DNA from: Mycoplasmataceae bacterium
GTDB lineage: Bacteria > Bacillota_I > Bacilli_A > Mycoplasmatales > Mycoplasmoidaceae
Reading direction: 5' to 3'
Assembly: GCA_031281575.1 (NCBI GenBank)
Contig: JAITFD010000039.1
Location: 1-39,521 of the forward strand
Length of the DNA stretch: 39,521 nt
Below, in pieces: positions 11,332-39,521 of the stretch. A program made the translations under genes and the position numbers. The number at the start of each line of letters is the position of its first letter. Positions within the stretch are counted from its first letter, which is position 1. The notes beneath the pieces were generated by a model that did not search any database, had not been told where the DNA came from, and was given only the letters and a program-made list of their open reading frames with translations.

Positions 11332-12342
11332 TTATTCGTTTGATCCAGTATTAGTTTTAGCAATATTTAACACCGGTTGAGCATCTTTGTTTGAACATAA
11401 TACAATTAATAAATTTGATACCGTTGCGGCTTTGGCTGATTCATCAAATTTGCAAATTTTTTCTTGTTCTAAACGTTTAAGTGTTGTTTCTACCATTCCA
11501 ACTGCACCTTCGACAATTTTTTGACGGGCTTCAATAATTGCTGTCGCTTGTTGACGTTGTAACATCGCTGAAGCAATTTCTGCCGCATAAGCTAAATGGG
11601 CAATTCGTGCTTCAATAATTTCAATTCCTGCGGCTTTTACCCGTGATTGTAATTCAATTCGTAATAATTTTGCAATCTCATTGGTAGATCCTCGTAATGA
11701 TTTTTCTCCACCTTCTTCACTATCATATGGATATAAACGTGCCACGTGACGCACTGACGAATCAGCTTGAATTGAAATAAAGTCATTATAGTTATCAACA
11801 ACAAAACAAGCACGAGCAGTATTAGTAATTCTTCATACAACAATGACACCAATTTCAATTGGATTACCTAATTCATCATTAACTTTTTGAATTCCGTTAT
11901 TTAAAGTTAACATTTTTAATGATGTTTTTGCGCCACAACGTCAAAATGGATAAACCCAATATGCACCTGGTTTACGTAATGTTCCGATATATTTACCGAA
12001 GAATGTATAAACATTAGCTTCATTAGGATAGATTGTTGTGAAACGACAAAAACAACAAAATCCAACAATTCCTAAAACAATTAAGACTGGTCCAAGGGCA
12101 ACTAAAAATGCGAGTCCGTCAACACCAAGATAAGTTGCACCAATACCAAGAATTATTGCGAATAACGAAGCAATTGTCAATACTAAACCGACAATTCAAG
12201 ATTTTAGTACAACATTATTTTCGGTAATATCAATTTGTTTAACTTCGGGATTTGCTTGAAAGTATTCGCTATCAGTTTGTGCTTCAATTGCCGGTTTTTC
12301 CGCTTTTTCTTTAATCTTCTTAATCGTTCCAGTTTTTCCCAT
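11332..12342 (-). CDS. SPFH/Band 7 (prohibitin-homology) membrane protein
   Basis: A 336-residue protein. A polar N-terminus of about 48 residues precedes two closely spaced membrane segments (about residues 50-105). A Band 7 domain follows, with the family's Y-P-N-E-A-N-V-Y-T-F-F-G-K-Y-I-G-T-L-R entry, G-N-P-I-E-I-G, and the coiled segment A-Y-A-A-E-I-A-S-A-M-L-Q-R-Q-Q-A-x-A-I-I-E-A-R. The last motif is typical of the flotillin-like class found widely in bacteria. Such proteins form ring-like or clustered scaffolds on the cytoplasmic membrane; a specific client is not known. ATG 12342 has TATAAT 12 bases upstream. Confidence 0.9.
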
Positions 12343-12486: not shown

Positions 12487-13572
12487 TTAAACGTTTGATT
12501 CGCGAATTGCTTTAATCATCCCTTTTTTCATGCTCCGATAAACAATTCGAAAAACATAAACAATAATTTTTACATTCTTTTGATAAATTAATCAAATGAG
12601 CGGATTTGATGATAAAATATGTTTACCAACTTTTTTACTCATGTTTTTAAATAAGACATCGATTAATTGGCCGATTTCTTGTTTCTTTTCAACATCCGTA
12701 CTGTTGTAGTCTAATGAAAAAATGAGAACGGCATAATAAAACATTGAACGAATAAAACGATATAAAATTTTTCGCCGTAAATGCCCGACAGAGTTTAAAA
12801 TCGGAATTGAAGAAATATCATTAATCACATTGACATATTTGCCTTTATTACGCATAATATTATTTAATGCCGTTGATTGTTCGGGATTTTCAACATTATA
12901 AATATAGAGCGGACAATCAATTGGTAAAAAGGCGATTGTTTTTGAACGCATGATACACTGATAAACTAAACAATTATCGGCGGAATAAATGTAACCCTCA
13001 GGCAACGGGATTAAGGTCTGAAACAATTCATTGCGAATGGTTAAATAGTGATGAGTGACAATCTTAAAATGAAAAATAAAACTGTCAAAAGAAGATAAAA
13101 TAATGCCTTTTTTATTTAAACGAAAACTATTTAATGTATCAAAATTTGATTTTAAATGGCGCATTAAATAAGGGGTAATTACTAAATCGGACTTTTGCAC
13201 TTTTTCACTTTGTAAGTATTCTAAGTATCGCGGAAAATTACCAGTCACAATTTGATCATCGGAATCAATAATTTTAATTCAACAACCATTTAATAATGGT
13301 TTAACATAATTAATAACCGATCCCCAATTGCCGTTTTTTTTGTAAAAATATTTAATACATTGAAAACGATCTAATCACGGTTTAACTTCATCATAAAACG
13401 ATTCGGTACTACCATCATCAATAATATAAATTTCAAAATATGAATGGTAAGAAAAATCAATCGATTCAAGTAATTTGTTAATTCATTTTTTACAATTGTA
13501 GGCGGGCACAACAATTGATAGTAAAAGTTTGTGCGAACTCCAGCAATCGGGATTTGAATTAGTTTGGACCAT
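12487..13572 (-). CDS. Family 2 glycosyltransferase
   Basis: A 361-residue protein. The N-terminal GT-A fold has L-S-I-V-V-P-A-Y-N (about residues 17-25), I-I-D-D-G-S-T-E (about 48) and the I-I-D-S-D-D-Q metal-binding element (about 97). A C-terminal basic, partly hydrophobic region may be membrane-associated. Members move sugars from nucleotide sugars onto lipids or polysaccharides; in a wall-less cell a glycolipid or capsule product is likely, but the substrate is unknown. It starts 7 bases after the rplT stop, so it is probably cotranscribed with the ribosomal protein genes. The stop abuts tRNA-Thr. Confidence 0.88.
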
Positions 13573-14240: not shown

Positions 14241-15863
14241 ATGAGAGCCCGCAAATTGATTAACTGCATAATTGCCTTGGCCGGATCGTTTTTTAGTTTT
14301 TTTATTGCCCAACATTATTGACCAAATTCTAATGATAATAACATTGGCTATGTTCGCATCGCGAATGCTGCACAAACTGCCGCAGCCGTTGACGATATAT
14401 TTGCCATTGATTCGCAACAATTAGCTTACGCTGGTTGAGGTGCGACATCGGGATCGATTCAATTCCAAATTACCGATGATAGTGCTGATCATCCGGCAGT
14501 TAAAATTATTGGGGGAATTGATAATTTTGGGGCAAATAATTTTGCTGTCCAATCAGTCATTAATTATAACAGCATTCCTTATCAAGTTACCGCCATTGGT
14601 GAAGCAGCATTCCAACGGAATGGATCAAACAATTTATTACGGGGTAATTTAACATTCCCGAGTGATAATGAACCACTAATTAATTTCGTGATTGATAATG
14701 ATGCATTTGCCAATCAACAACTGGCATCCGTCATTATTCCTAGTGAAAATATTTTCCAGATTGGCAACCAAGCATTTAGCGATTGCACAATTGATGACTT
14801 AGAAATTGAAAATAATAATGCGATCACAATTAATCAATCAGCATTTGACAATTCAAGTATCGGGATCATCAAACTCGATTTTCAAGTGTGAAATACCCAT
14901 GCTTGTTTTTGCAATTTAATCAATACGGGAATTGTTGACTTACCATACTATTCAAGCATTACGAAACAAAATTTATTTAATGCCCAAAATGATTGAATAA
15001 TTACCTATAATTCACCAATTCCAGCTGGAAAAGGTTTTACTTTAAACCAAAGCCAATTAACGACATGAGGCGTGATCGATGGAAGTATTAATTTTATTGT
15101 TGGTCCTGATGAATCAACCGTTTTAATTCAAGAAACTAGTGTTAGTTTTACTGCCCAAAATTTAAACATCCATAACTTTGTAACATACGGTGCTGGCAAA
15201 TGAAAAGTCTATGGGATTAATCAAAACGCATTTACCAATAAAAATCTGACTGGAACTTTAACCTTACCAGAATCACTTGGCACAATTAATAATGGCGCAT
15301 TTAGTTCAAACCAATTTAGCGGTGAATTAATTATTCCGGAAAATATGTTACTAGTTGGAATATGAGCGTTTGATACAACAACTTTTTCGACATTAACAAT
15401 TAATTCCAACCAAACAACATTTAATACGCAAGCTTTTTTAAATATGGCAAATCTGCAATTAATTAATTTACCATTTATGGATTGACCGGAAAAAAATGAT
15501 GGGATTTTTGCTTTATTAAATTCAAGTTTGAATGGAACCGTGCGTGTCCCAACTGGTTCAACCATTACCTTAGAACAATTAGGTTTGGCGGCAAGTGGTA
15601 AATGGGCAATTGAATATTATGAACCAACGCCGCCAGTTAATCCGGATCAACAAGACAGTCTGTTGTGAATTTATATCGCTATTGCTGCAGGAACATTCGT
15701 TTTATTAGCAGCAACAATTATCATTATTATTATTAAACGTAAAAAAGGAAAAGGGAAAGCGAAAGCAGCAAATAATAAAAACGAAAAAGTGCAAAAAACA
15801 AAAAAAATCGCAAACCCGAAAGCCAAAAAAGCTCCGACAAAGAAAAAACAAAAACGGAAATAA
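14241..15863 (+). CDS. BspA-like leucine-rich repeat surface protein, paralog 1
   Basis: A 540-residue predicted surface protein. A hydrophobic signal or anchor (about residues 6-24) is followed by two copies of a module that begins F-x-(L/I)-x-x-x-Q-L and contains W-G and G-S-I. Each copy is followed by LRR_5/BspA-type repeats, for example L-T-G-T-L-T-L-P-E-S-L. A T-L-E-Q-L-G-L element precedes a C-terminal membrane helix (about 475-498) and a tail of about 45 mostly Lys/Ala residues. BspA-type repeats in other bacteria and protists mediate adhesion; that role here is inference. It is the longest of four tandem paralogs and the only one with two modules. Confidence 0.82.
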
Positions 15864-15864
15864 T

Positions 15865-15881
15865 TAATTATTATATAATTA
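15865..15881. repeat. AT-only palindrome over the paralog 2 promoter
   Basis: TAATTAT-TAT-ATAATTA, two 7-base arms containing the -10 box and starting 1 base after the paralog 1 stop. An identical copy lies before paralog 3 at 16870-16886, so the junction was duplicated with the gene. Confidence 0.5.
15874..15879 (+). promoter_or_regulatory. -10 box of surface paralog 2
   Basis: TATAAT 8 bases before the ATG, only 10 bases after the stop of paralog 1. The -35 region must therefore lie inside that gene's lysine-rich 3' end. Confidence 0.65.
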
Positions 15882-15887
15882 GTTTAT

Positions 15888-16868
15888 ATGTATAAAATCA
15901 TTAAATGTTCAATTTGTTTAATGTGATTGGCACTTTTTTCTTTCCTTTGTTTTAATCCAAAACAAACGGAATTTAAATTAAACGAAACGCCAAAAAGCCA
16001 AAAATTAAATGCCGCAGCCGTTGATGATACTTTTACATTAAATGCTGATCAATTAGCGAGTTGAGGAGTTACGAGCGGATCAATTACATTTACAATTACG
16101 GCAGTTGGTAAAGTTAATACCGTCGCTATTACTGATGCAAAAACTAATTTGGTTGAAGCGAATGATTTTATTATTCCTGATACCGTAATTTATAATGATG
16201 TTGAATACTGAATTACCGATATCGGCGTTCTTGGCGGGGAGAAAAGAATCACCGTTACTGGCGAATTAAAACTGCCTGCTGCACTCACCGAACTTGCCGA
16301 GAATGCTTTTGCTTGGGTTAATTTTACTGGCGAACTGATTATTCCAAGCCACGTTAAATCAGTTGGATGACGCGCATTTTTTCGCTGCGGATTTTTTGAT
16401 ACATTAACAATTAAAGATAATAATACATTAATTGACTACCTTGCATTTTCTGGTTGTGATTCACTGACGAAAATTAATTTGCCATTCACGAAATGATCGT
16501 CAGAAAATAAGAACTGTTTTTCGTCTTTAGCACCAACTACTGGACTAACACGATCGATTGTTGTGCCGAAAGGATCAAAGATTACATTAGATCAATTGGG
16601 ATTGGCTAATTCAAATTGAACAATGGAATACGTTGGTTCCGATAATTCCGGATCAAATAAATTATGAATGTACATTGTTATTCCTGGTGGTGCAGGTGTA
16701 TTATTAGCAGCGGGCATATATATCATTATTAAACGTAAAAAAGGAAAAGGGAAAGCAAAAGCAGTAAATAATAAAAACAAAAGCAAGAAAACAAAAAATA
16801 AAATCAAAAAAATAGTAAGGTCAAAAACCAAAAAAGCTCCCGCAAAGAAAAAAGCAAAACGGAAATAA
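15888..16868 (+). CDS. BspA-like surface protein, paralog 2
   Basis: A 326-residue protein. The signal segment starts M-Y-K-I-I-K with a conserved F-L-C at residues 19-21, which could be an atypical lipobox but lacks the usual small residues. Next is one F-T-L-N-A-D-Q-L-A-S-W-G module (about 48), then LRR_5 repeats (T-G-E-L-K-L-P, T-G-E-L-I-I-P, T-L-T-I). An I-T-L-D-Q-L-G-L element precedes a C-terminal membrane helix and a tail of about 45 residues dominated by Lys. The 5' and 3' ends are nearly identical in DNA to the neighbouring paralogs. Confidence 0.82.
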
Positions 16869-16869
16869 T

Positions 16870-16886
16870 TAATTATTATATAATTA
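16870..16886. repeat. AT-only palindrome over the paralog 3 promoter
   Basis: Exact copy of the 17-base palindrome at 15865-15881, again starting 1 base after the preceding stop and containing the -10 box. Confidence 0.5.
16879..16884 (+). promoter_or_regulatory. -10 box of surface paralog 3
   Basis: TATAAT 8 bases before the ATG, directly after the stop of paralog 2. Confidence 0.65.
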
Positions 16887-16892
16887 GGTTAT

Positions 16893-17795
16893 ATGTATAA
16901 AATCATTAAATGATCGATTTGCTTAATGTGAATAACGTTTTTATCTTTCCTTTGTTTTAAACCAAAGCAAACGGAATTTAAATTGAACGAAACGCCAAAA
17001 AATCAACAATTAAATGTTGCGGCAGTTGATGATACTTTTACGCTAAATGCCGCTCAATTAGCGAGTTGAGGAGTTACGAGCGGATCAATTACATTTCGCG
17101 TGACCGGAGTTGGTGAAACCAATACCGTGACAATTAACGATGGCCGAAGTGATCGCATTAACGCCAATAATTTAACAATTCCTAGTACTGTGGCTGATGG
17201 GGATGGAGTCAAATATCAAATTACCGCAATTGGTAGTGGTGCGCTCGGTGGTGAGCAACCAATATCGGTCACTGGAAAATTAACGCTACCAGCATCGCTA
17301 AAAAGACTTGAATATGCGTCATGCGGCAGTATCCGATTTACTGGTGAATTAATTATTCCTGTTAACGTCGAATCAATTGCGACATATGCATTCTACATGT
17401 GTGGTTATTTTTCCACATTAACATTCAAAAACAATAACACCGTCATTTCAAATGCTGCTTTTTCGTCATGTAACAGTGTTCGTAAATTAAATCTACCATT
17501 TATGGAATGACCAACAGTTAACCTTAATTGTTTTAGTAGTTTATCGAATCGTGACGCTGAACCAACACCACCAATCGTGGTTGTGCCAGTCGGCTCAAGT
17601 ATTACATTGGATCAATTAGGATTAAGTGGAAGCAACTGAATTCTTCATTATTCAGACGGTAGTAATCCACAAACAAGTCATTTATCATGATTGCATATTT
17701 GTTTGCCGCTTTTGATGGGTGGATTAATTGGTTTTATTGTATATACGATTTATAAAAGACGTTATTCGATAAACAAATTATTGCCGGAGAAATAA
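16893..17795 (+). CDS. BspA-like surface protein, paralog 3
   Basis: A 300-residue protein with the same order of parts as paralog 2: signal segment with F-L-C at 19-21, Q-L-A-S-W-G module with G-S-I-T-F, LRR_5 repeats (T-G-K-L-T-L-P, T-G-E-L-I-I-P), I-T-L-D-Q-L-G-L, then a membrane helix near residues 267-288. The cytoplasmic tail is short (K-R-R-Y-S-I-N-K...) and lacks the long Lys-rich stretch of paralogs 1 and 2. A probable type I surface protein. Trp residues at conserved positions are mostly TGA codons. Confidence 0.82.
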
Positions 17796-17813
17796 AAAAA
17801 TTAAAGAATTATT

Positions 17814-17819
17814 TATAAT
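17814..17819 (+). promoter_or_regulatory. -10 box of surface paralog 4
   Basis: TATAAT 8 bases before the ATG, as in the other paralogs, but the surrounding palindrome is shorter (AATTAT-TT-ATAATT). Confidence 0.65.
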
Positions 17820-17827
17820 TAATTTAT

Positions 17828-18739
17828 ATGTATAAAATCATTAAATGATCGAGCTGCATAATGTGATTTGTGCTTTTTTCTTTCCTTTGTTTTAAGCCAA
17901 AGCAAACGGAATTTAAATTAAATGAAACACCAAAAAGTCAACAATTAAATGTCGCAGCCGTTGGGGATACTTTTACATTAAATGCTGATCAATTAGCAAG
18001 TTGAGGAATAACTAGCGGGTCAATTACCTTTACAATTATTAAGACTGGTTTATTTAATAACGTCGCCATCACTGATGGAAGAACCAATTTGGTTCATGCG
18101 CACAATTTAACAATTCCGGATACAGTAATCGGTGATGATGGGATTGAATACCAAATCACAATTATTGATGATAAAGCATTTGGTAGCAATACACCAGCCA
18201 AAATTAGTGGCAAATTAACCTTACCAAATAGTCTTATCGAAATATACTCAGATGCATTTAGTTATACCGAAATTACTGGTGAATTAGTTATTCCGCAAAA
18301 TGTCCGATACATTGAATATGCATTCAGAAATTGCGAATTAATCGAGACGATAACATTCAAAAATCAATGTCTATTATTAACAAACTATAGTTTTAACAAC
18401 TGCATTGGGATCAAACAAATTAATATACCTTTTATGCAATGACAACCAGTGAACCTTGAAATCTTTAAATGTTTACAAGGAAACACCGGAACAACTGCAC
18501 CACCCGTTGTTGTTGTGCCAAAAGGATCAAGCATTACATTAGATGAATTAGGATTGGCCTGGACAAATTGAACGATCCGCTATTCGGGTTTTATTATGCC
18601 AACATCATGAATGTACATTACTTTCCCACTGGTTGGGGGAATATTGATTGTGTTTTGTTGCGTTAAAATTTATCGAAGAAAATATCCATATGCTACACTA
18701 ATTTTACTCCATAACGGTAAAAAAATTAAAACTTTTTAA
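17828..18739 (+). CDS. BspA-like surface protein, paralog 4
   Basis: A 303-residue protein with the same layout: M-Y-K-I-I-K signal segment with conserved F-L-C, F-T-L-N-A-D-Q-L-A-S-W-G module, LRR_5 repeats (S-G-K-L-T-L-P, T-G-E-L-V-I-P, T-I-T-F-K), I-T-L-D-E-L-G-L, then a C-terminal membrane helix near residues 262-281. The tail (about 20 residues) is unlike the other three. It ends the array; the next gene is unrelated. Its middle part is the most diverged from paralogs 2 and 3, while the first 110 bases stay nearly identical. Confidence 0.82.
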
Positions 18740-23867: not shown

Positions 23868-24215
23868 TTACTTTTTTCGTAAATTTTTTAAATAATCATC
23901 ACGTTTCATAAATCAATCAGGTGCATCACCGGCATAAATTTTACCTTTATTTTTTCAGCGTTCATCGCGGAATTTATTTCATTCTTCGTCACTCATTGCC
24001 TTAATTGTTTCTGGTTCTAATGCAATCCGCTTATTCCCTTTTTCTTTTTGCTTACTAATTCATTCGGCATAAGAATCTTTTGATGCTAAAAAATAACCAG
24101 GAACTGGTTTAGCGTAGTCAACTTTTTTTGACTCTCATTTTTCCCGACGGTACTTTTCCCATTCAGCTTCATTCATTCGCTTTACTTGATCAATCGTAAC
24201 TTTGTTAATCGCCAT
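23868..24215 (-). CDS. Small internally duplicated Trp-rich protein, unknown
   Basis: A 115-residue protein I do not recognise. It is built from two related halves: one has M-N-E-A-E-W-E-K-Y-R-R-E-K-W with a later P-G-Y-F; the other has M-S-D-E-E-W-N-K-F-R-D-E-R-W with a later P-D-W-F. Each half appears to contain a charged helix, a short loop and an aromatic turn. It is soluble and highly charged, and most Trp are TGA. An in-frame ATG at 24221 would add two residues and sits 8 bases from a TATATA box, which fits the leaderless pattern better. Confidence 0.7.
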
Positions 24216-24229
24216 AAACATGCATTCTT

Positions 24230-24253: not shown

Positions 24254-25315
24254 ATGGAACACCGGGAAATTCTGCATGTGGATATGGATGCTTTTTTCGC
24301 GGCAGTGGAAGAAAAAAAAGATCCAACGCTGAAAAATTTACCGTTAGTGATCGGGATGAATAATAGCAAGTCGGTTGTGTCCACCGCAAACTATTGTGCC
24401 CGAAAATACGGAATCCATTCCGCAATGCCGATCTATAAAGCAAAGCTTTTATGTAAAGATTTAATCATTCGGGAACCGCATTTTTCCGAATATGAAGATT
24501 ATCATCATCGCATTATCGATTTATTGCGTACGGAATTTACGGATCAAATTGAAGTTTGTTCGATTGATGAATGCTATCTTGATATTACTGATTTATCTAA
24601 AGATAAAACTCCAAAATATATTGCTTTGATGATTCAAAATCGTATTCGGCAAAAAATCGGTTTATCTTGTTCCATTGGAATTGCCCATAATAAATTCCTG
24701 GCCAAAACCGCAACCGATTTACATAAACCGAATGGAATTACCACCCTTTATCGTGATGAATTAATGGAGAAATTTTGACCATTAAAAATTGAAAAAATGC
24801 AGATGGTGGGACCAAGTACTGCCCTTTTTTTGCACCAAAATAATATTCATTTAATTAGCGATTTAGCAAAGCTAAATAAAAAACATTTAATCAAATTACT
24901 CGGAGCCAATGGAGCACATATTTATGAATGTGTCCATGGCATCAGTTCTGACCGCGTGGTATGGCAAAAGCAATTACCCAAATCAATTTCCTCTGGCAGT
25001 ACGTTCTATCGCGATACAAACGATGAAAATGAAATTACTCGCACATTAGCGGAACATGTGCAAATCGTTACATCGCGTTTATTGCACGAAAAAATCTTGG
25101 CAAAACGGATTACTTTACAAGTGAAAAGTGAGCGAAGACGAATGATCGGAAAATCTGTTACCTTCGCCACACCAACCCAAGATTGCGAACAACTGCTTTT
25201 TATCATCAACCAGCTGTACGAACAAAACTTCATCAACCACACATTACGCTACGTTGGTGTTGCTGTATCACAAATCATTCCGATCCGTGATAATCCGGCC
25301 CACTTATTTCGTTAA
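24254..25315 (+). CDS. dinB: Y-family DNA polymerase IV
   Basis: A 353-residue translesion polymerase. The catalytic metal ligands are D10 and D12 in H-V-D-M-D-A-F-F-A-A-V-E and D105-E106 in S-I-D-E-C-Y-L-D. Further family features are Y-C-A-R-K-Y-G-I-H-S-A-M-P near 47-59, S-C-S-I-G-I-A-H-N-K-F-L-A-K and a helix-hairpin-helix region, then the little-finger domain. One TGA Trp at 24776-24778 splits it under the standard code. The length is typical, and all catalytic residues are kept. Confidence 0.95.
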
Positions 25316-25375
25316 AAAAAGTGCATTAGATTAGTTTTCCTACAAAAAAATTGTTGTTAACCTATTTCGTTATAG

Positions 25376-25381
25376 TATAAT
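25376..25381 (+). promoter_or_regulatory. -10 box of giant coiled-coil gene
   Basis: TATAAT, 10 bases before the ATG. It is the only recognisable promoter for the three-gene run to 31712. Confidence 0.65.
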
Positions 25382-25391
25382 ATAAATATAT

Positions 25392-28300
25392 ATGTCAGTA
25401 ACAAGTGGCAAAGTCGAAGCATTAAAACAACGTCGAAAACACTATTGAGATCAATACCAAGCGCACATTCGTAACCTGCTGGCAATTGACAAAAAATTCT
25501 ACGATGAAAACACTTCGTATGCCGCATTTGAAGATCCAAAAAAAGTTTTTGATACACAAATTCTACATAAACGAAAAATGACGGCATGACGTGAAAGTGT
25601 TGACGTTCATTACCTAAACATCATCAATCTTTTGGATTATCGAATCAAATTAGTTGAAGCGGAAAGCCAATACACCAAAAAAATCAACGACTTGACTAAC
25701 GAATTCCAAAAAACGCATGGTGGACTATTTGGTGACCAACGCATTCTTGATCGTTGAGATAAATTAAATTTCAAAAACACTTCACGAGTTGACTATATCG
25801 CCATTCGTAATATCTATAAAGAAATTCATTTGATGAAACAAAAATACATTTATGCGATGACTGTATTGAACAACAGTACTGAACGTAGTGTTTTATTAAT
25901 CAAAAACAACCGTAGCTATACACAACAACAACGGGAAGCTGAGATTAAACGTGTATTTGATGAACAAGCGCATTATGAAGCTGACTTACTTCGTCAATAT
26001 CACAACAACTTAGTGGCGGCAATTTCGGAAATGAAATTTGACCAAAAATCACCAGAATATTTCCGTAAACTACGAGCGAATGTTAACGAATATTTAAATT
26101 CGCAAATTAAAAAGAACAACGAAGTTTATGATCGTTACCATAAACACGCGAAAACAACATTAAATAATTTGATTACGCGTAAAGAAGATGCTGTTAAACA
26201 ATTAAAGGAAAACCGTTACAATGTATTAAATAAACAAAACAAAGAAGATATTGAAACAATCGAAAACCGCATCAAAATCCTTGATAACCATTTTGATCAA
26301 GCGATTAAAATTCACAAAAATACGATTGATTTATTAGATGCTGATAAAAAATTAGTTGATCAACAATATAAAGACACATTAGCAAAAATTGATGAAATGT
26401 TTGATGCTTTAAATGAAAAGAATTCAAAAAAGATCGACAAATTAGAAGAAAATTTAAAAACTGCTCAAGCCAAATTAGATGCGTTATACAAAACTGAATT
26501 AGATAATTTAGATAAAAAACGTGAGCATGATGAAGAAAAATATCAAGCGGATGTTCTAGCATATGAACAAAAACATCAAGCTGCTGTAGAAAAAGCGAAA
26601 GCGGAAGATGCAAAAAATCTTGCAGCATATGAAGCTAAATGTGCAGCATTACATGCCCAAAACGAAAAATCAATAGAAAAGATTACTGTCCCGTTTAAAA
26701 AACAAGTTGTAGAAGTTGAACGCGAAACTGAAGCAGAAAAGAAACATCAACTAGTTGCGATTAATGAATTAGAAGCAAAAGTTGAAGGTTCACGGAAAAA
26801 ATTTGAAACACAATCAAATAAAATTACCGCTGATTTTAAAACTAAAATTGATGAATTAGCCAAAAAATGTAAACTGGATGTTGAAAATGCTTCAAAAAAG
26901 AAATCAACCTTTATTAAAAATAACTTTGCCGAAAGTAGTGTAACAAAGGTTGATACTGAATCAAACCTTGCTCGTTTAGATTTATGATACCAAAAATCTG
27001 TTGATTCAATTAATGCAAAAACTGATTTAGCCGTTGATAAGCTTAATAAAGAGTTTAAAGCCCAAAAGAATCTAATCATTACACCGATTGAAGTTAAAAA
27101 AATTACTGCAATCCATGACCAAAACTTAGAAAACTTAAAAACTGTTTCCAAAGAAAACTTAGAAAACTTACGTAAAGAATATGAAGCAAAACGTGCCGTA
27201 TTAAAAGAAAAAATCGAAATTGATACCAAAAATAAAAAACGAACAAAAACATTATTACCAAAAGTTGAAGTTGATGTAAAAGTTTTAACGGCATTAGAAG
27301 TTAAAACAAATATTTCGGCCATTAAATACCAACACGAACTGGAAGCTCAAACATTAGAAGTTAAATATAATGAAGAAGTTGCAGCGCTTTCACGAAAACA
27401 TGAAGCCGAACTAACACCAGCATTAGCAAAATTAAATGAAGCGAAAGCCCAACTAGATGAATTTGTTGCAAAACAAAATTTAAAAGTATCAGAAATTCGC
27501 AATAACGAACTAGTTGCAATTGAACACGCCCGTTTAGAATTACCAGCAAAAACAATTGAACCATTTGTTGCAACAGCAAACAAAGTTGCCGAAGCATACG
27601 TTTTACCAGAAAAGAAATATATTGAAGAATTTAAAGTTGCGACACGAGCTGTTCATGATGCTTATACCCAAAAAGTTAAAAAGTTAAATGAACAATCAAA
27701 AAACAATATTGAAAAACAAAAACAAATGAACAAAATTGAAGCGGACAATTTTGCTTATGATATCTTAGTCGCAAAAGCGAAAGATATTAATGAAACAGTT
27801 GTTGAAGAAATTAATCAAAAACGCGAAAAAGCAGAAAATGCCTTTGCCGAAGCAAAGAAAAAATATGAAGCAGATATCGCGGAATTAGAAAGTAAATTAA
27901 CAACATTACGTAACATTCACCGAAAATATGAAGATAATCTTGCGGAAGTAATTAAAGATGATATCGCACAAGTTGAAAGTAAATTCAATGTTCATATTGA
28001 TCATATTAATGCCGAATTAAAACAACATGAAAACACTTTAAACCGCAATAATGAAAAAGTTAAAGCCGAAGTTGCTGATTTATTGAAAAAAATTAGTACG
28101 AACGAATTTAATTCATCCGTTGAATTACGTCGTCGAATCGGTTACGACCGTGTTGATGAGTTAGGTCGTCAATATGCCATTAATCCCGCAACAAATAAAG
28201 CATTAGCCGTTGATAGTATTAACCGACCACGTCGTGGTTTCTCCCAAAAATTCTATAACGACTTGTGACTTTACGGTGTTATTTCGGCAGTTTTATTAAT

Positions 28301-30047
28301 CATTGGTCTATGTGAACGTTTACATTTATTTGATCGTTTATTCTCCCACTTCGATAATTATGAAAACGTTGAACAAATGTTGAGTGTTGTTGGTGTGATT
28401 GCTTTATTTATTGGGGGGTTTGGGGCAGTCATTATTACTTTAGGATCAATCTTTGCGTTCTTTGCTGCTGGACGACGTGAATTGAGCCGTTTCGCTTTCC
28501 CAAATAAATTAACCGAATTAAAATACTATGCCGATTCAGCAAAAATTTTCTATGATTGCGTTCAAGATTATCCATCATATACCAAATATATTAAAGCAAA
28601 AAATCGTTATTTAGTTGCCAAAGCACAAAAAGATCATAATGATGCAATCGCCCATGCAAAATTAGCCTATTTAAGCGAACACAAACGAATTCTTGATGCT
28701 AAACCAAAATATTTATATACAAAAGAAACAGCAAAACGTTTCCATTTATTATCACGAGCTTATGCTTTCCGAAATGGATTACGAAAAATTAAACGCGAAT
28801 ATGCGATTGAAATTCAACAAATTAAACACCGAAAACATTTACGGGCACAAAAATACCACAACGCTATGCACGCTGCAACAACTAAAATTAAACGTCAAGT
28901 CGTTTTTGAAGAATACGAATTAGCGAAACGAACATTTGCTTTCCAAGATCGCCTTGATATTGAAAATGCCCACCGTAATTTTGTGAATAAATACAACCGT
29001 TTATGCATCCAATGTCGTCACGAAAAAGCCGTTTCACCAATCGTTCAATTAGGAATTTTGAAACATCACAAAATGACAAGTGAGTTCCAAAAAGTGCGTG
29101 AACAATCAGCAAACACATTGGCATTATTAAAAACACGAATTGATGAAACCGAAGGTATTGCTCGAGAAGCTGACCGAATTGAAAATGCGAAAAAGGTTGT
29201 GCGAAATGCGGAAAAATTAGTTAATACAGCAACTGTATTATTAATCATCTTTGCCATTTTCTTAATTGTTGGTACTGAAGCTTACATCTTCTTCCCCGGG
29301 ACTTTAAATCAAGAATTGTTCACTGGCTTTACAATTCTACACTTAGCCATTGTCCTAGCTAGTATCTTATTCGTTTTCGTTTTAATTTATTCACTGGTGG
29401 CTAGTGCAGCAAAAAGTCGTGCCGCAAATGTGAAAAAATTGAATATCGATTTATACCGAGTGCAACAAGATAAGATTGCGAAATTGAAAAACTTAAATCG
29501 TTTAATTGTCAACGAAGTTGCTAACGTTTGTAACATTGCGATTGATGTGGAAAAAGACAATTACAATATGGCTCACGACGCTTACCTTGAATCATTACAT
29601 GATCTTGAAGATCAAATGAATAGCATTGAAGCAGCCAACGTTTCAATTCAACAAAAAATTCACGAATACCACAACGAGAAAAATGCGCTATTACGTTCTG
29701 AACACAAGAAAGTGTTGGAAACAATTCATGAATTATATGTTAAACAAGTGAAAGCGTTCCAAGAAAAATATCGTGTATTGATGCAACGTAAAGACAGTGA
29801 ATTTAGTAACTATTCGGCAAAATTAAAAGCGGAATTAATGGCATTAAAACAACGTAAAGAAATGATTATGAATCACGACGGAACTGACATTTCTTACGAC
29901 CAATTGTTATTAGAACCAAATAAAGTTGGAGCATTCACAAGCACCATTGAAGAAAACGTTGAAGAAGCCGTTGCTGATCAAGTTGTTCCAGCAAGTGCAG
30001 ATGTCCAAGTTGATGCGAGCGAACCGGAACAACCAGTTTCTAAATAA
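25392..30047 (+). CDS. Giant four-helix-anchored coiled-coil protein
   Basis: A 1551-residue protein in one frame, with TGA Trp codons at several sites. Residues 1-955 are nearly all charged heptad-type sequence rich in Lys, Glu, Ala and Asn. Two hydrophobic segments (about 960-980 and 995-1027) form a hairpin. About 250 further charged residues follow, then a second hydrophobic pair (about 1278-1300 and 1311-1340), another coiled region and an acidic tail from about 1520. Two membrane hairpins imply that all three charged regions lie on the same, probably cytoplasmic, side. I recognise no named family. A cytoskeletal or membrane-organising role is inference. It overlaps the next gene in TAATG. 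Confidence 0.85.
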
Positions 30048-31018
30048 TGGTTTCATTGTTTCTTTACATTAAGAATCAGCACGATCAACTCGTTAATTGT
30101 TTAAACAGTATTACGCAACAAACCAATCATGAATTTGCTTTACATTTATGTTTAGATGGAACTAATCAAGCCGTTAATGAATTAATCAGCCAGCACGATT
30201 TCCGGGGCATTAAAGCGGTCATTGTGCATAAAACCGATACCGCAGTTGGGAACGGGTTCTTCTACCATTTAGCTAAAACAATTGGCGATGGAGACTATGT
30301 TTGGTTTGGCAATAGCTATTGTACATTTGCACCAAATTTTATTGCTTTAATCACCCAAATCACGACCACTGATCATCCCGAACTAATTGATTTCTCGCGC
30401 AACCACAATGCAAAAAATCATACCGTTGATATCTTTAATATCCGGGATTTGTTTTTTCATCAAGATCAAGTTACCCCATTTATTTATGATAAATTATTTT
30501 CCACCACCTTTTTAAATGCCCACAACATCTGTTTTAATCAATTACACACCCAACCGTTAGCCTTCATCTATGATGTCTTTGCTTGTGTCGAAAATGTTTA
30601 TAAAGTTAATGAACCAGTCTTTACCTATATTCATAATCGCCAAGAATTTGATAATATCTATGATATTATTTATATGGCACAAAACATTGTTAAGCAAAAC
30701 CAAAATACCGATTTCTGAAAAAATTACTATGTTTTAATTGAATATGTGGCAATTGTCCATATTTTATGTATCTTCTTGTACAATATCTACAAAAACAACG
30801 ATGATCCAATTATTTTAAAAAATGCCGTGAATAGTTGTAAAGCGTTATTTGATGAAACATTTAAGAATTGACGTGATAACCAAATTATTCAACAAAAAAA
30901 TCAATTAAACGATGATGTTTGTCATTTGTTACGGAATTTTAATTTCAAAAAGAAAGACATTAATGCCTTAATCAATTTATTAGATCAACAATATTATTCA
31001 AGCCAAGCCAATGAGTAA
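30047..31018 (+). CDS. Glycosyltransferase-2-like protein, degenerate
   Basis: A 323-residue protein. The N-terminus follows the family 2 layout (a V-S-L-F-L-Y-I-K-N strand, L-N-S-I-T-Q-Q-T-N-H-E-F) but the usual D-D-G-S is L-D-G-T. A clear D-x-D metal site is absent; G-D-G-D-Y-V-W-F-G-N-S-Y stands near its place. The C-terminal third is helical, with one moderately hydrophobic stretch (about 230-250). Catalysis is doubtful. It starts inside the stop of the giant coiled-coil gene and overlaps the RDD gene by 8 bases, so the three are probably made together. Confidence 0.65.
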
Positions 31019-31712
31019 ATATTTTTTAGCTTCAGCCTGAATTCGCAGTTGTTGCCGGGTTTTTGATTTGCTTGTCGCATCCGGTATAAGCATTGGCGTG
31101 AATGTGCTTGTTATCTATTTTTGTAATCCTGATCATACCTTAAATTTAGCTTCAGCCTGATATTTAGCTTTAATCATTGTTGTCACTTTGCTTGTATTTA
31201 TTACCTATTTTATTTTGATCCCACTAGTCGCTCACGGTAAAACATTGGGAAATCAAATTACTAAAACCCGCACGATTGTCGTTGATCAAACTCCCACCTT
31301 TTTTGCATTAATTAAAAAAGAACTATTTATTTGAATGGATGGATTGTTCATCTATTTATTACTATCATTGATCATTATTGGGTTTACACCGGAGCAATTT
31401 AATGAAGTAATGCAAGAACTAATGATGCGCTTTTCTTTTGATTATGCTTATCAATATGGTGCCATTGTTGGGACCTTTGGTCCATTAACGGCATTTTATG
31501 CCTTATTCACCGTGATTATTTTTGGCAACATGTGCTTTAAAAACCGCCACCGTTGTTTAAATGATGTTTTTAGTCATACCGCAGTGATTAAAAATGTCAA
31601 AATTACCAAAACCAAAACCCCAAAACAAAAACCGAGTAATTTTGTCTTACCCGGCACCCTATCAAATGATTCGCGACGGGAATTAGATAAAATTGATGAT
31701 CAGAAATATTAA
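31011..31712 (+). CDS. RDD family membrane protein
   Basis: A 233-residue protein with three or four membrane segments. The family's Arg and Asp occur in the first segment (R-S-C-C-R-V-F-D-L-L-V-A), and the post-TM2 loop has the typical G-K-T-L-G-N-Q-I-T-K-T-R. The C-terminal 50 residues are polar and basic. RDD proteins are small transporters or membrane partners of mostly unknown role. ATG 31011 lies 8 bases inside the upstream gene's end, an overlap in a different frame. Confidence 0.75.
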
Positions 31713-31748: not shown

Positions 31749-32561
31749 ATGAAACACAATGCAACATTAAACATTTTATTTATCGGTGACATTTTTGGCA
31801 GTAATGGTCGGCGAGCAGTTAAAGCATTATTACCGAAGTTAATCCAAGAATACCAAATTGATTTAACGATTGCGAATGCGGAAAATACCACCCATGGTCG
31901 TGGTTGTTCATTTGCCCATTACCAAGAATTAAAAAAAGCCGGAATTAACTTTTTTACCTTCGGTAATCATACTTGGCAAGTGCCGGACTATCCTCGCGTT
32001 TTAAATAATGATGACGTGATTCGTCCAGCCAATTTAAACCAAAGTCATCCTTATGCTAAAGTCGGAAAAGGATCCATGTTAATCAACGTCAAAGGTCAAG
32101 CGATTCGGCTAACCAATTTACTTGGTTCATCAATTGATTTTAAAACGCCACTGACCACCAATCCGTTCCTTTACTTACAAGCAATGCTCCACCAACAAAA
32201 AAGCGCTCAACCGGTTTTACATATCATTGATTTTCATGCGGAAACAACCAGTGAAAAAAATGCATTAATTGCACAATTTAATGGTCAAGTTAGTGCGATC
32301 ATTGGAACCCATACCCATGTCCAAACCAATGATGCTAAAATCGTTAATCATACCGCTTACCTAACTGATGCGGGCATGACGGGCGGGTATGAAGGGATTA
32401 TTGGTGCAGAAGCAAAAACCATTATTGCAAAATTTAACGAACAAGTTACCCGTTTTACTTTAAAACCCGCCAAAGGTAAATACCAATTCAATGCTGTGCA
32501 TATTAAATTTGTTAATCAGCAACCAACAGCAATTACGCCAATTCAAATTGTCGAAAAATAA
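31749..32561 (+). CDS. YmdB-family metallophosphoesterase
   Basis: A 270-residue protein of the TIGR00282/YmdB family, bimetal phosphodiesterases described in Bacillus as acting on cyclic nucleotides. Metal-site motifs are visible in order: F-I-G-D-I-F-G (Asp near 14), N-A-E-N-T-T-H-G-R-G, F-G-N-H-T-W, D-F-H-A-E-T-T-S-E-K and G-T-H-T-H-V-Q-T, with D-A-G-M-T-G following. All expected metal ligands appear present. The stop TAA touches the stop of the convergent PAP2 gene in the hexamer TAATTA. Confidence 0.92.
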   Translation: MKHNATLNILFIGDIFGSNGRRAVKALLPKLIQEYQIDLTIANAENTTHGRGCSFAHYQELKKAGINFFTFGNHTWQVPDYPRVLNNDDVIRPANLNQSHPYAKVGKGSMLINVKGQAIRLTNLLGSSIDFKTPLTTNPFLYLQAMLHQQKSAQPVLHIIDFHAETTSEKNALIAQFNGQVSAIIGTHTHVQTNDAKIVNHTAYLTDAGMTGGYEGIIGAEAKTIIAKFNEQVTRFTLKPAKGKYQFNAVHIKFVNQQPTAITPIQIVEK

Positions 32562-37776: not shown

Positions 37777-39521
37777 ATGATAAAAAAATTAGCAAGTATG
37801 ATCAAAAACACGTTTAATCGGGCAACGTTGATTTGATCGATCATCGCCGTATTTCTATTAACTGGTGGTGGTGTTGGGACTTTTTTCATTGTTAATGCCA
37901 ATAAGAGTACAACCAGTTTTATAACTGATACAGTTATTACCACTAGTACTAATGATTTAAATGTTGTTTACGGTAATACGAAAACTATTACCTATCACGC
38001 GAGTGAAAAAGGTCAATGACATTTTACGACCGATGCAACCAATTTTCTCGATTATTCAATTGATGAAAATAACGATTTAACTGTTGTTTTATCAGCCAGT
38101 GCTAATGTTGGGCAATATCCATATACGGTTAGTTTCAGCCCACCCCCTGAGAAATATGCATTTAATCCCGAAACCATTGATGCTGTAATTACGGTTTTAA
38201 CTAGCGATGCAATTAAGATCGTGCAAGGCAGCAATGTCGTTAATGAGCAAATTTTTGGTGCGGAAACTAAAAACACATATACAATTGAAAAAGATCAACA
38301 ACAATTAACGGGTGGAACTTGATCACTTAGTCCAAAATTTACTAACATTGACTGTGATCCACAAAACGGAACAATCACTTATGGAACAAATTTAGCGGTT
38401 GGGGTTTACAATTTTGCCATTCAATGTGTTTATAATCCTAATTATGTTATTGCTGAATTACCCATTGAATTTGCGGTTAATTTAGCAACGCCAGTAATCG
38501 GAATTGAAGGTGATAATTTTACGATAAGTAAAGTTTATGGCGCTTCAACATCAAAAAAATTTAATAGTAGTGTTCCTAGTGGTAAATGAACGATAATCGC
38601 TAATCCACATGCGGATATTACACTTAACGAAGATAATGGTGATTTAACGGCGAAAGCGACTTTACCGGTTGGTGAATATCCATTCACTGTTAACTATTTA
38701 ATTAATGAGGCCAATCCCGACTACCGCGATGCAACAATCCACTGTATGGTTATTGTTCAATCAGGTACGACAACAATTAATACGCAAGGTAACGATTTTA
38801 CCATTACGAAAGTTTATGGTGGTGATGTATCGAAAACATTTACTGGTAGTGTTAGTGGTGGAACATTTAGTTTAACAGGTAATACAAACAATGATATTTC
38901 AATTACTCAAGGTGGAGTATTAACAGCGAAAGCAACACTGCCGGTTGGTGAATATACTGCATCGATTAAATATGCACTTAACAATTATACTGATGCAACT
39001 GCAACATGTACAATTGTTGTTCAACCAGGTACAACAGCCATTAATACAGCAAACAACGATTTTACCATTACGAAAGTTTATGGCGCTCCGGCGGCATCAC
39101 GAACATTTACTGGCAGTGTTAGTGGTGGAACATTTAGTTTGACAAATAATCCCCATAATGATATTGCAATTACACAAGCTGGAGTATTAAGCGTTAAAGC
39201 GACGGTGCCGGTTGGTAATTATTCAGCAAATATTAAATATACATTAGCGAATTATACTGATGCGACGAAAACATGTACAATCGTTGTTCAACCAGGTACA
39301 ACAACCATTAATACAGCAAACAACGATTTTACCATTACGAAAGTTTATGGTGCTCCGGCTGCATCACGAACATTTACTGGTAGTGTTAGCGGTGGAACAT
39401 TTAGTTTAACAGGTAATACAAACAATGATATTTCAATTACTCAAGGTGGAGTATTAACAGCGAAAGCAACACTACCGGTTGGTGAATATACTGCATCGAT
39501 TAAATATGCACTTAACAATTA
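37777..39521 (+). CDS. Repeat-rich surface protein (3' end beyond window)
   Basis: 581 residues are visible with no stop before the edge. A basic N-terminus and one hydrophobic segment (about residues 18-40, with G-G-G-V-G) form an uncleaved signal anchor or signal peptide. The rest is beta-rich repeats of about 85-90 residues, each with an F-T-I-x-K-V-Y-G entry, G-G-T-F-S-L, a V-G-E-Y strand and C-T-I-V-V-Q-P, resembling bacterial Ig-like or MBG-type modules. At least six units are seen: the first three are diverged, the last three nearly identical in DNA. Adhesion or host interaction is inference. Confidence 0.8.
38764..39027 (+). repeat. Tandem repeat unit A (264 bases)
   Basis: First of the near-identical units, 88 codons, beginning at the G-T-T-T-I-N-T codons. 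It has G-G-D-V-S-K after the V-Y motif. Its second half nearly equals that of unit C. Confidence 0.8.
39028..39294 (+). repeat. Tandem repeat unit B (267 bases)
   Basis: 89 codons, one codon longer than unit A, with G-A-P-A-A-S-R after the V-Y motif. Its first half nearly equals that of unit C; its second half differs from A and C. Confidence 0.8.
39295..39521 (+). repeat. Tandem repeat unit C (partial)
   Basis: 227 bases are visible before the edge. The first half is B-like and the second half A-like, with only about two mismatches to unit A over the last 140 bases. Confidence 0.8.

Follow-up and report, generated by a model that had tools for sequence, protein, structure and literature searches.

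What does the 1551-codon frame of a mollicute contig encode, and do the two genes that follow it form part of the same machine? We addressed this question in the window, a stretch of 39,521 nucleotides of contig JAITFD010000039.1 (Mycoplasmataceae bacterium, assembly GCA_031281575.1), in which a giant gene is followed by a glycosyltransferase (GT)-like gene and by a gene for an RDD membrane protein (Table 1). The original prediction had described a coiled-coil protein with two membrane hairpins and had suggested that the two linked genes were its dedicated partners. The window's genome (G000) comprises 775,766 bases in 52 contigs and is 85% complete. Frames were read with translation table 4 (TGA = Trp), which is required for the frames of the window to open. 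The genus sample consisted of 36 genomes, including G000 and the genome G030, and relatives of the giant were sought by running profiles of its membrane part and its head against up to 320 genomes of the order. We found that the giant is a well-defined, undescribed and apparently lineage-specific protein with a conserved domain plan, and we give a probability of about 0.55 to the reading that it serves as a membrane-anchored cytoplasmic helical scaffold or tether.

Domain plan and conservation of the giant protein

A single ortholog was found, G030:C54:10953-16217 (1754 amino acids (aa); JAITWZ010000052.1, Mycoplasmataceae bacterium isolate Zx50_bin17), which, together with the open frame under table 4 at 25392-30047, bears out the predicted 1551 codons. 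The two proteins are 30% identical overall, with 37% identity in the head, 24% in the long coil, 34% in the centre and 37% in the C-terminal coil. Measured against shuffled sequences, the similarity of G000 and G030 reached z values of 59 for the first 250 residues, 9.8 for the long coil, 47 for the centre and 34 for the C-terminal coil. We therefore regard the giant as a genuine gene and not a chance frame.

The hydrophobic period was compared with 100 shuffles. For residues 251-905, of which 37% are charged, the values were 3.66 (window) and 3.64 (G030), with a strength that none of the 100 shuffles reached, and self-similarity peaked at shifts of 11 and 22 in the window and of 14, 25, 29 and 7 in G030. 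The period of 3.64-3.66 and the self-similarity at these shifts indicate a mixed heptad/hendecad or hendecad-rich coil and not plain heptads. A 7- or 11-residue helical repeat above chance, as in coiled-coil proteins, is thus found in residues 251-905. The same analysis revealed no significant coil period in residues 1-250, which we treat as a separate helical head and which are among the best-conserved parts, and no significant period in the centre (1031-1265), whose net charge is +22 in the window and +9 in G030. The original prediction of about 955 heptad-like residues overstated the coil, as the first 250 residues and the centre lack a significant period; the repeat itself is mixed or hendecad-rich. 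Its 250-residue central coil did not hold up: residues 1031-1265 are strongly basic, helical in a weak model and without a significant period.

Both predicted hydrophobic pairs were recovered as four segments (962-980, 999-1017, 1276-1294 and 1318-1336) that lie at the same places in G030. The N-terminus of the giant carries no hydrophobic signal. Because there is no signal-like N-terminus, there are four membrane segments, and in the window their flanks are positive and their loops acidic, the head, centre and C-terminus would most likely lie in the cytoplasm by the positive-inside rule, which supports the two-hairpin topology proposed earlier. An AlphaFold2 model of residues 903-1538 from a two-row alignment was all helix, with turns at both hairpin loops, and segment 4 ran as one continuous helix into the C-terminal part. 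The predicted acidic tail is present (net -11), but it is not common to G030, whose tail of about 290 aa differs in having several K-K-x-V-V-V-N-K-like motifs, as identified by eye. Another coil-plus-hairpin design was seen within the same genus at L036:613-2163 (+ strand), a highly charged 516-aa protein low in Pro and Gly, with membrane segments at 442-460 and 478-496 near its C-terminus.

The giant was found in 2 of the 320 genomes of the order. Among GTDB contigs, the single-sequence search returned no relatives and the two-row alignment returned G030 alone. No relatives were found among viral contigs (IMG/VR), phage records, PHROGs or PADLOC, and PDB sequence searches with the whole, N-terminal and membrane profiles gave no useful or significant match. 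Pfam and NCBIfam gave no match above cut-off, and an SMC/Rad50 ATPase head was absent from the matches to these two collections. The architecture, which the original prediction did not recognise, thus matches no known family in Pfam, NCBIfam, PHROGs, PADLOC or the PDB sequence searches.

Several candidates were rejected. Matches of profile A2 in G227 (6.4e-4, 17 bits) and G290 (0.007, 13 bits) covered short stretches and were taken as composition. A phage tape-measure protein was dismissed, as phage records, PHROGs and viral contigs held no phage relatives and the neighbours are housekeeping genes. In G065, from another genus of the family, a gene upstream of the GT-like gene (L072:7379-12787, - strand, the strand of the GT2-like gene) encodes 1802 aa with many acidic aromatic E-Y-F-D-like repeats; this aromatic, acidic repeat protein is unrelated and is not a second giant.

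The operon downstream of the giant gene

The stop codon of the giant and the start codon of the GT-like gene share bases in TAATG, and an 8-base overlap joins the GT-like gene to the RDD gene; both junctions are real, as had been predicted. On the + strand, no terminator-like site was found between the giant, GT-like and RDD genes. A promoter-like site precedes the giant; the promoter scan overall was at chance level, and this TTGTTA-16-TATAAT site is therefore suggestive at most. The gene order dinB-giant-GT-RDD is identical in the window and in G030, so that the three genes also stand together in the one other giant-bearing genome.

These features could reflect a dedicated machine built around the giant as its structural core, with the GT-like and RDD proteins as membrane partners. 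The three genes adjoin in both giant-bearing genomes despite 30% identity, and both gene junctions, TAATG and the overlap of 8 bases, hint at translational coupling. However, the GT-RDD pair occurs across the order without the giant, a small unrelated gene leads the operon in most of the genus, and the giant-bearing genomes are sisters, so that the three-gene adjacency may be simple inheritance. We consider such a machine unlikely. Because the pair is conserved without the giant, and the giant sits where a small unrelated gene is usual, the dedicated partner set of the original prediction is not supported; the giant, known from two species, looks like a lineage-specific structural protein that does not belong to any fixed machine of three genes.

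The distribution of the pair was broad. A single-sequence search detected the GT-like gene in 28 of 36 genus members; an 18-row profile matched 85 of 119 genomes of the order, and the weaker of these matches are possibly other GT2 enzymes. With the giant-bearing genomes left out, an RDD gene lies directly 3' of the GT-like gene at 22 genus loci by sequence and at two more by position and size, and it follows the GT-like gene at all 16 further loci from the genus, other genera and other families; GT-RDD without the giant was thus found at 38 loci by sequence across the order. The exceptions were G008, with an lgt-like gene in the RDD place, and one contig that ends there. The next genes encode a helicase of about 730 aa that bears the UvrD/PcrA motif AGAG(T/S)GKT and, in many cases, a ymdB-like protein. 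A PF00580 match confirmed the helicase copy of G023 at the operon position, and L076, from one f5 genome, has the order GT-RDD-helicase-HPr, with HPr named from sequence. In both giant-bearing genomes, the strongest UvrD-family match lies on another contig. Judged by this distribution, the GT-RDD pair is old and conserved without the giant, and represents a persistent uncharacterised operon of the order. The order-wide arrangement GT2-like - RDD - UvrD/PcrA-like helicase (- ymdB-like) was observed at window 30047-31712 and at L034-L058 and L068-L083. Two g21 genomes carry, divergent from the GT2-like gene, a pair of genes whose products of 619 and 660 aa each have two membrane segments at the C-terminus (L071:7067-10990 and L083:7064-10993).

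In most genus members, a gene of about 105 aa stands directly ahead of the GT-like gene, mostly with a gap of about 0-5 bases. Its product has a strand-like start (K-x-K-L-N-I-E-I-D), then a helix and a charged tail that often ends in N-L-K-N, and it has no Pfam family (L036:10645-10968 and its equivalents). At a threshold of E <= 0.1, the profile of this protein had matches, a few of them weak, in 31 of the 36 genomes and none in G000, G030, G007, G015 or G016. In both giant-bearing genomes the giant occupies its place. The C-terminus of the giant was rejected as a fused remnant of the small protein, as neither HMMER with filters off nor BLAST revealed homology. In the tree of the GT-like proteins, the two giant-bearing genomes group together (100/98). 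A single event in an ancestor that they share would be the simplest history: the gene that normally leads the operon was lost or displaced, and the giant took over the first position, with dinB upstream of it.

We compared the GT-like motifs of 44 syntenic sequences, with the window's ordinary GT2 gene at 12487-13572 as a control. DxD was absent from all 44, a single Asp being kept there in seven, and the residues at the site are commonly G-S-N in the genus and K-E-G-N or K-E-G-D in f5; the control keeps IDDGS and DSDD in the same alignment. PF00535 matched 13 of 18 GT-like relatives (best 2.3e-16), with the window copy below the Pfam threshold. An AlphaFold2 model from a two-row alignment was poor (predicted local distance difference test (pLDDT) 43), and the strand-helix order of its first part fits GT2; Foldseek gave no match below 0.001, with glycosyltransferases numerous among its matches. 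The family resembles GT2 (PF00535) in these family matches and, at low confidence, in strand-helix order, whereas it differs in the missing DxD and in the sub-threshold window copy. A degenerate glycosyltransferase-like gene, as predicted earlier, agrees with these results, and the family is probably a pseudoenzyme.

In JCVI-syn2.0/syn3A, _0697 is a 318-aa GT2-family protein, the downstream _0696 encodes an RDD protein reported to be essential, and 0694 encodes a phosphotransferase system (PTS) component (PMC6755753, PMC6609329); a metabolic model of JCVI-syn3A assumes that 0697 is the Gal-DAG synthase (PMC6609329). From gene order and annotation, and not from direct sequence comparison, the GT-RDD pair appears to match _0697/_0696 of JCVI-syn2.0. 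The gene types and their order are the same, and a PTS gene lies two places on, as in L076, whereas no giant is present there. If JCVI-syn3A 0697 belongs to the same family, as gene order would have it, it may not be a metal-dependent glycosyltransferase.

Role of the giant protein

In the reading that we prefer, a scaffold or tether, the N-terminal head, the coil of about 650 residues and the C-terminal helix would lie in the cytoplasm, and the two hairpins, with the basic helical region between them, would anchor the giant on the cytoplasmic side of the membrane. Through oligomerisation, the coils could then keep a partner (a protein, the nucleoid or a further stretch of membrane) a fixed distance away from this anchoring membrane or, alternatively, form a submembrane filament. 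Having taken the leading position of the old GT-like/RDD operon, the giant gene is probably co-transcribed and, by TAATG coupling, co-translated with the gene of an essential membrane protein, and binding to the GT-like or RDD products would not be needed. This reading is based on the domain plan kept at 30% identity, the conserved membrane segments, a coil period above shuffles and the self-similarity at shifts of 11 and 22. It also draws on the search results, in which no enzyme, phage, defence or structural family was matched, on a model that is all-helical, though weak, and on the operon context, in which the giant stands where the small gene is usual and its two bearers form one clade.

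Several points weigh against the scaffold or tether. The architecture is read from sequence, and the evidence base is two sequences. A period near 3.65 alone is no proof of a supercoil, and the coil may also be a single amphipathic helix. The charge bias around the membrane segments is weak in G030. The AlphaFold2 model of the giant has a mean pLDDT of 54, which is poor and agrees with the sequence reading at most, and Foldseek with this model gave no match below 0.001.

With HMW2 and other cytoskeletal coiled-coil proteins of the attachment organelle of Mycoplasma pneumoniae, the giant shares its occurrence in mollicutes, a size of 1.5-1.8 thousand residues, mostly in long coils, and a proposed structural role (PMC4669176), and it could be a rod of an attachment or gliding structure that works like HMW2 but has gained a membrane anchor. 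HMW2 is similar in size and has a long coil (1818 residues, 1257 of them in coils; PMC4669176), and the window's genome shares its family with EAGR-bearing genomes. However, HMW2-type rods are not described as membrane-spanning (PMC4669176), whereas the giant has two membrane hairpins. Moreover, EAGR-box proteins were found in none of the 36 genus genomes, including G030 and the 85% complete G000, whereas the same search gave 6-18 matches in each of three g21 genomes from another genus of the same family, which argues against an attachment organelle of the M. pneumoniae type. Giant profiles A2 and A3 had no match in the EAGR-bearing G064, G073 and G082, so no sequence relation to the giant was found in those genomes. 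The earlier comparison with attachment and gliding structures is thus weakened, and we consider an HMW2-like rod quite improbable.

EzrA-like and SMC-like proteins are membrane-anchored coiled-coil proteins of division and the chromosome. They share with the giant long coils tied to the membrane or chromosome, whereas no family match or ATPase head was found for the giant, and its membrane segments differ in number and place. Another idea is that the giant links chromosome and membrane: the basic centre would bind membrane-proximal DNA, and the coil would extend into the nucleoid. The centre is well conserved and basic in both orthologs, dinB lies upstream in both, and the usual operon includes a PcrA-like helicase gene. 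However, Pfam and NCBIfam gave no SMC, Rad50 or DNA-binding family match, the positive-inside rule accounts equally well for basic charge beside membrane segments, and the pcrA-like gene is on another contig in both giant-bearing genomes. A linker of this kind therefore seems highly improbable.

Wall-less bacteria shape and organise their cells by internal proteins that are unknown beyond a few model species. As a long shot, the giant might build a hendecad-rich submembrane skeleton that displaced a small adaptor from the head of an essential membrane-protein operon, so that synthesis of the filament would keep pace with that of the RDD protein, to which it would also be attached. If true, a hendecad-rich rod with two hairpins would be a new type of mollicute submembrane skeleton.

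Feature coordinates and other genes of the window

Coordinates are collected in Table 1.

Table 1. Features of the giant gene, its product and its neighbours (window positions).
Feature	Position	Strand	Evidence
Giant gene	25392..30047	+	1551 aa, 5 TGA = Trp; open under table 4; ortholog in G030
Head, residues 1-250	25392..26141	+	37% identity to G030; z 59 over shuffles
Long coil, residues 251-905, hendecad-rich	26142..28106	+	period 3.66; shifts 11, 22; 8 Pro+Gly/655
Membrane hairpin 1, residues 962-980 + 999-1017	28275..28442	+	hydropathy; same places in G030
Basic helical centre, residues 1031-1270	28482..29201	+	34% identity to G030; net +22
Membrane hairpin 2, residues 1276-1294 + 1318-1336	29217..29399	+	hydropathy; same places in G030
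C-terminal helix, residues 1346-1490	29427..29861	+	37% identity to G030; one long helix, low-confidence model
Acidic tail, residues 1491-1551, not conserved	29862..30044	+	net -11 for 1496-1551; other tail in G030
GT2-like gene, probable pseudoenzyme	30047..31018	+	323 aa; PF00535 in 13/18 family members; DxD absent
RDD membrane-protein gene	31011..31712	+	233 aa; PF06271, 1.1e-10, 42.4 bits vs cut-off 24.1
dinB-like DNA polymerase IV gene, upstream neighbour	24254..25315	+	PF00817 1.9e-51; synteny kept in G030
ymdB-like gene, downstream neighbour	31749..32561	+	BLAST matches at many genus/family loci, same cluster
Promoter-like TTGTTA-16-TATAAT ahead of giant	25354..25381	+	10/12 consensus; 10 bases 5' of ATG

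A protein of about 116 aa adjoins dinB in both giant-bearing genomes (window 23868-24221, - strand; L003:9390-9737, - strand), with 51% identity between the two copies; it has repeated E-W-x-x-[YF]-R-x-x-[RK]-W motifs and no Pfam family. At 11332-12342 (- strand), the window encodes a Band 7/SPFH (flotillin-like) protein (9.3e-23). Four tandem related genes occupy 14241-18739, the first with BspA-type leucine-rich repeats (LRR_5, 7.3e-23); their products have N-terminal signal-like and C-terminal membrane segments and are likely surface proteins. At 37777-39521 (+ strand), a repetitive, signal-bearing protein with repeats like NDFTITKVYGAPAASRTFTGSVSGGTFSL runs off the end of the window.

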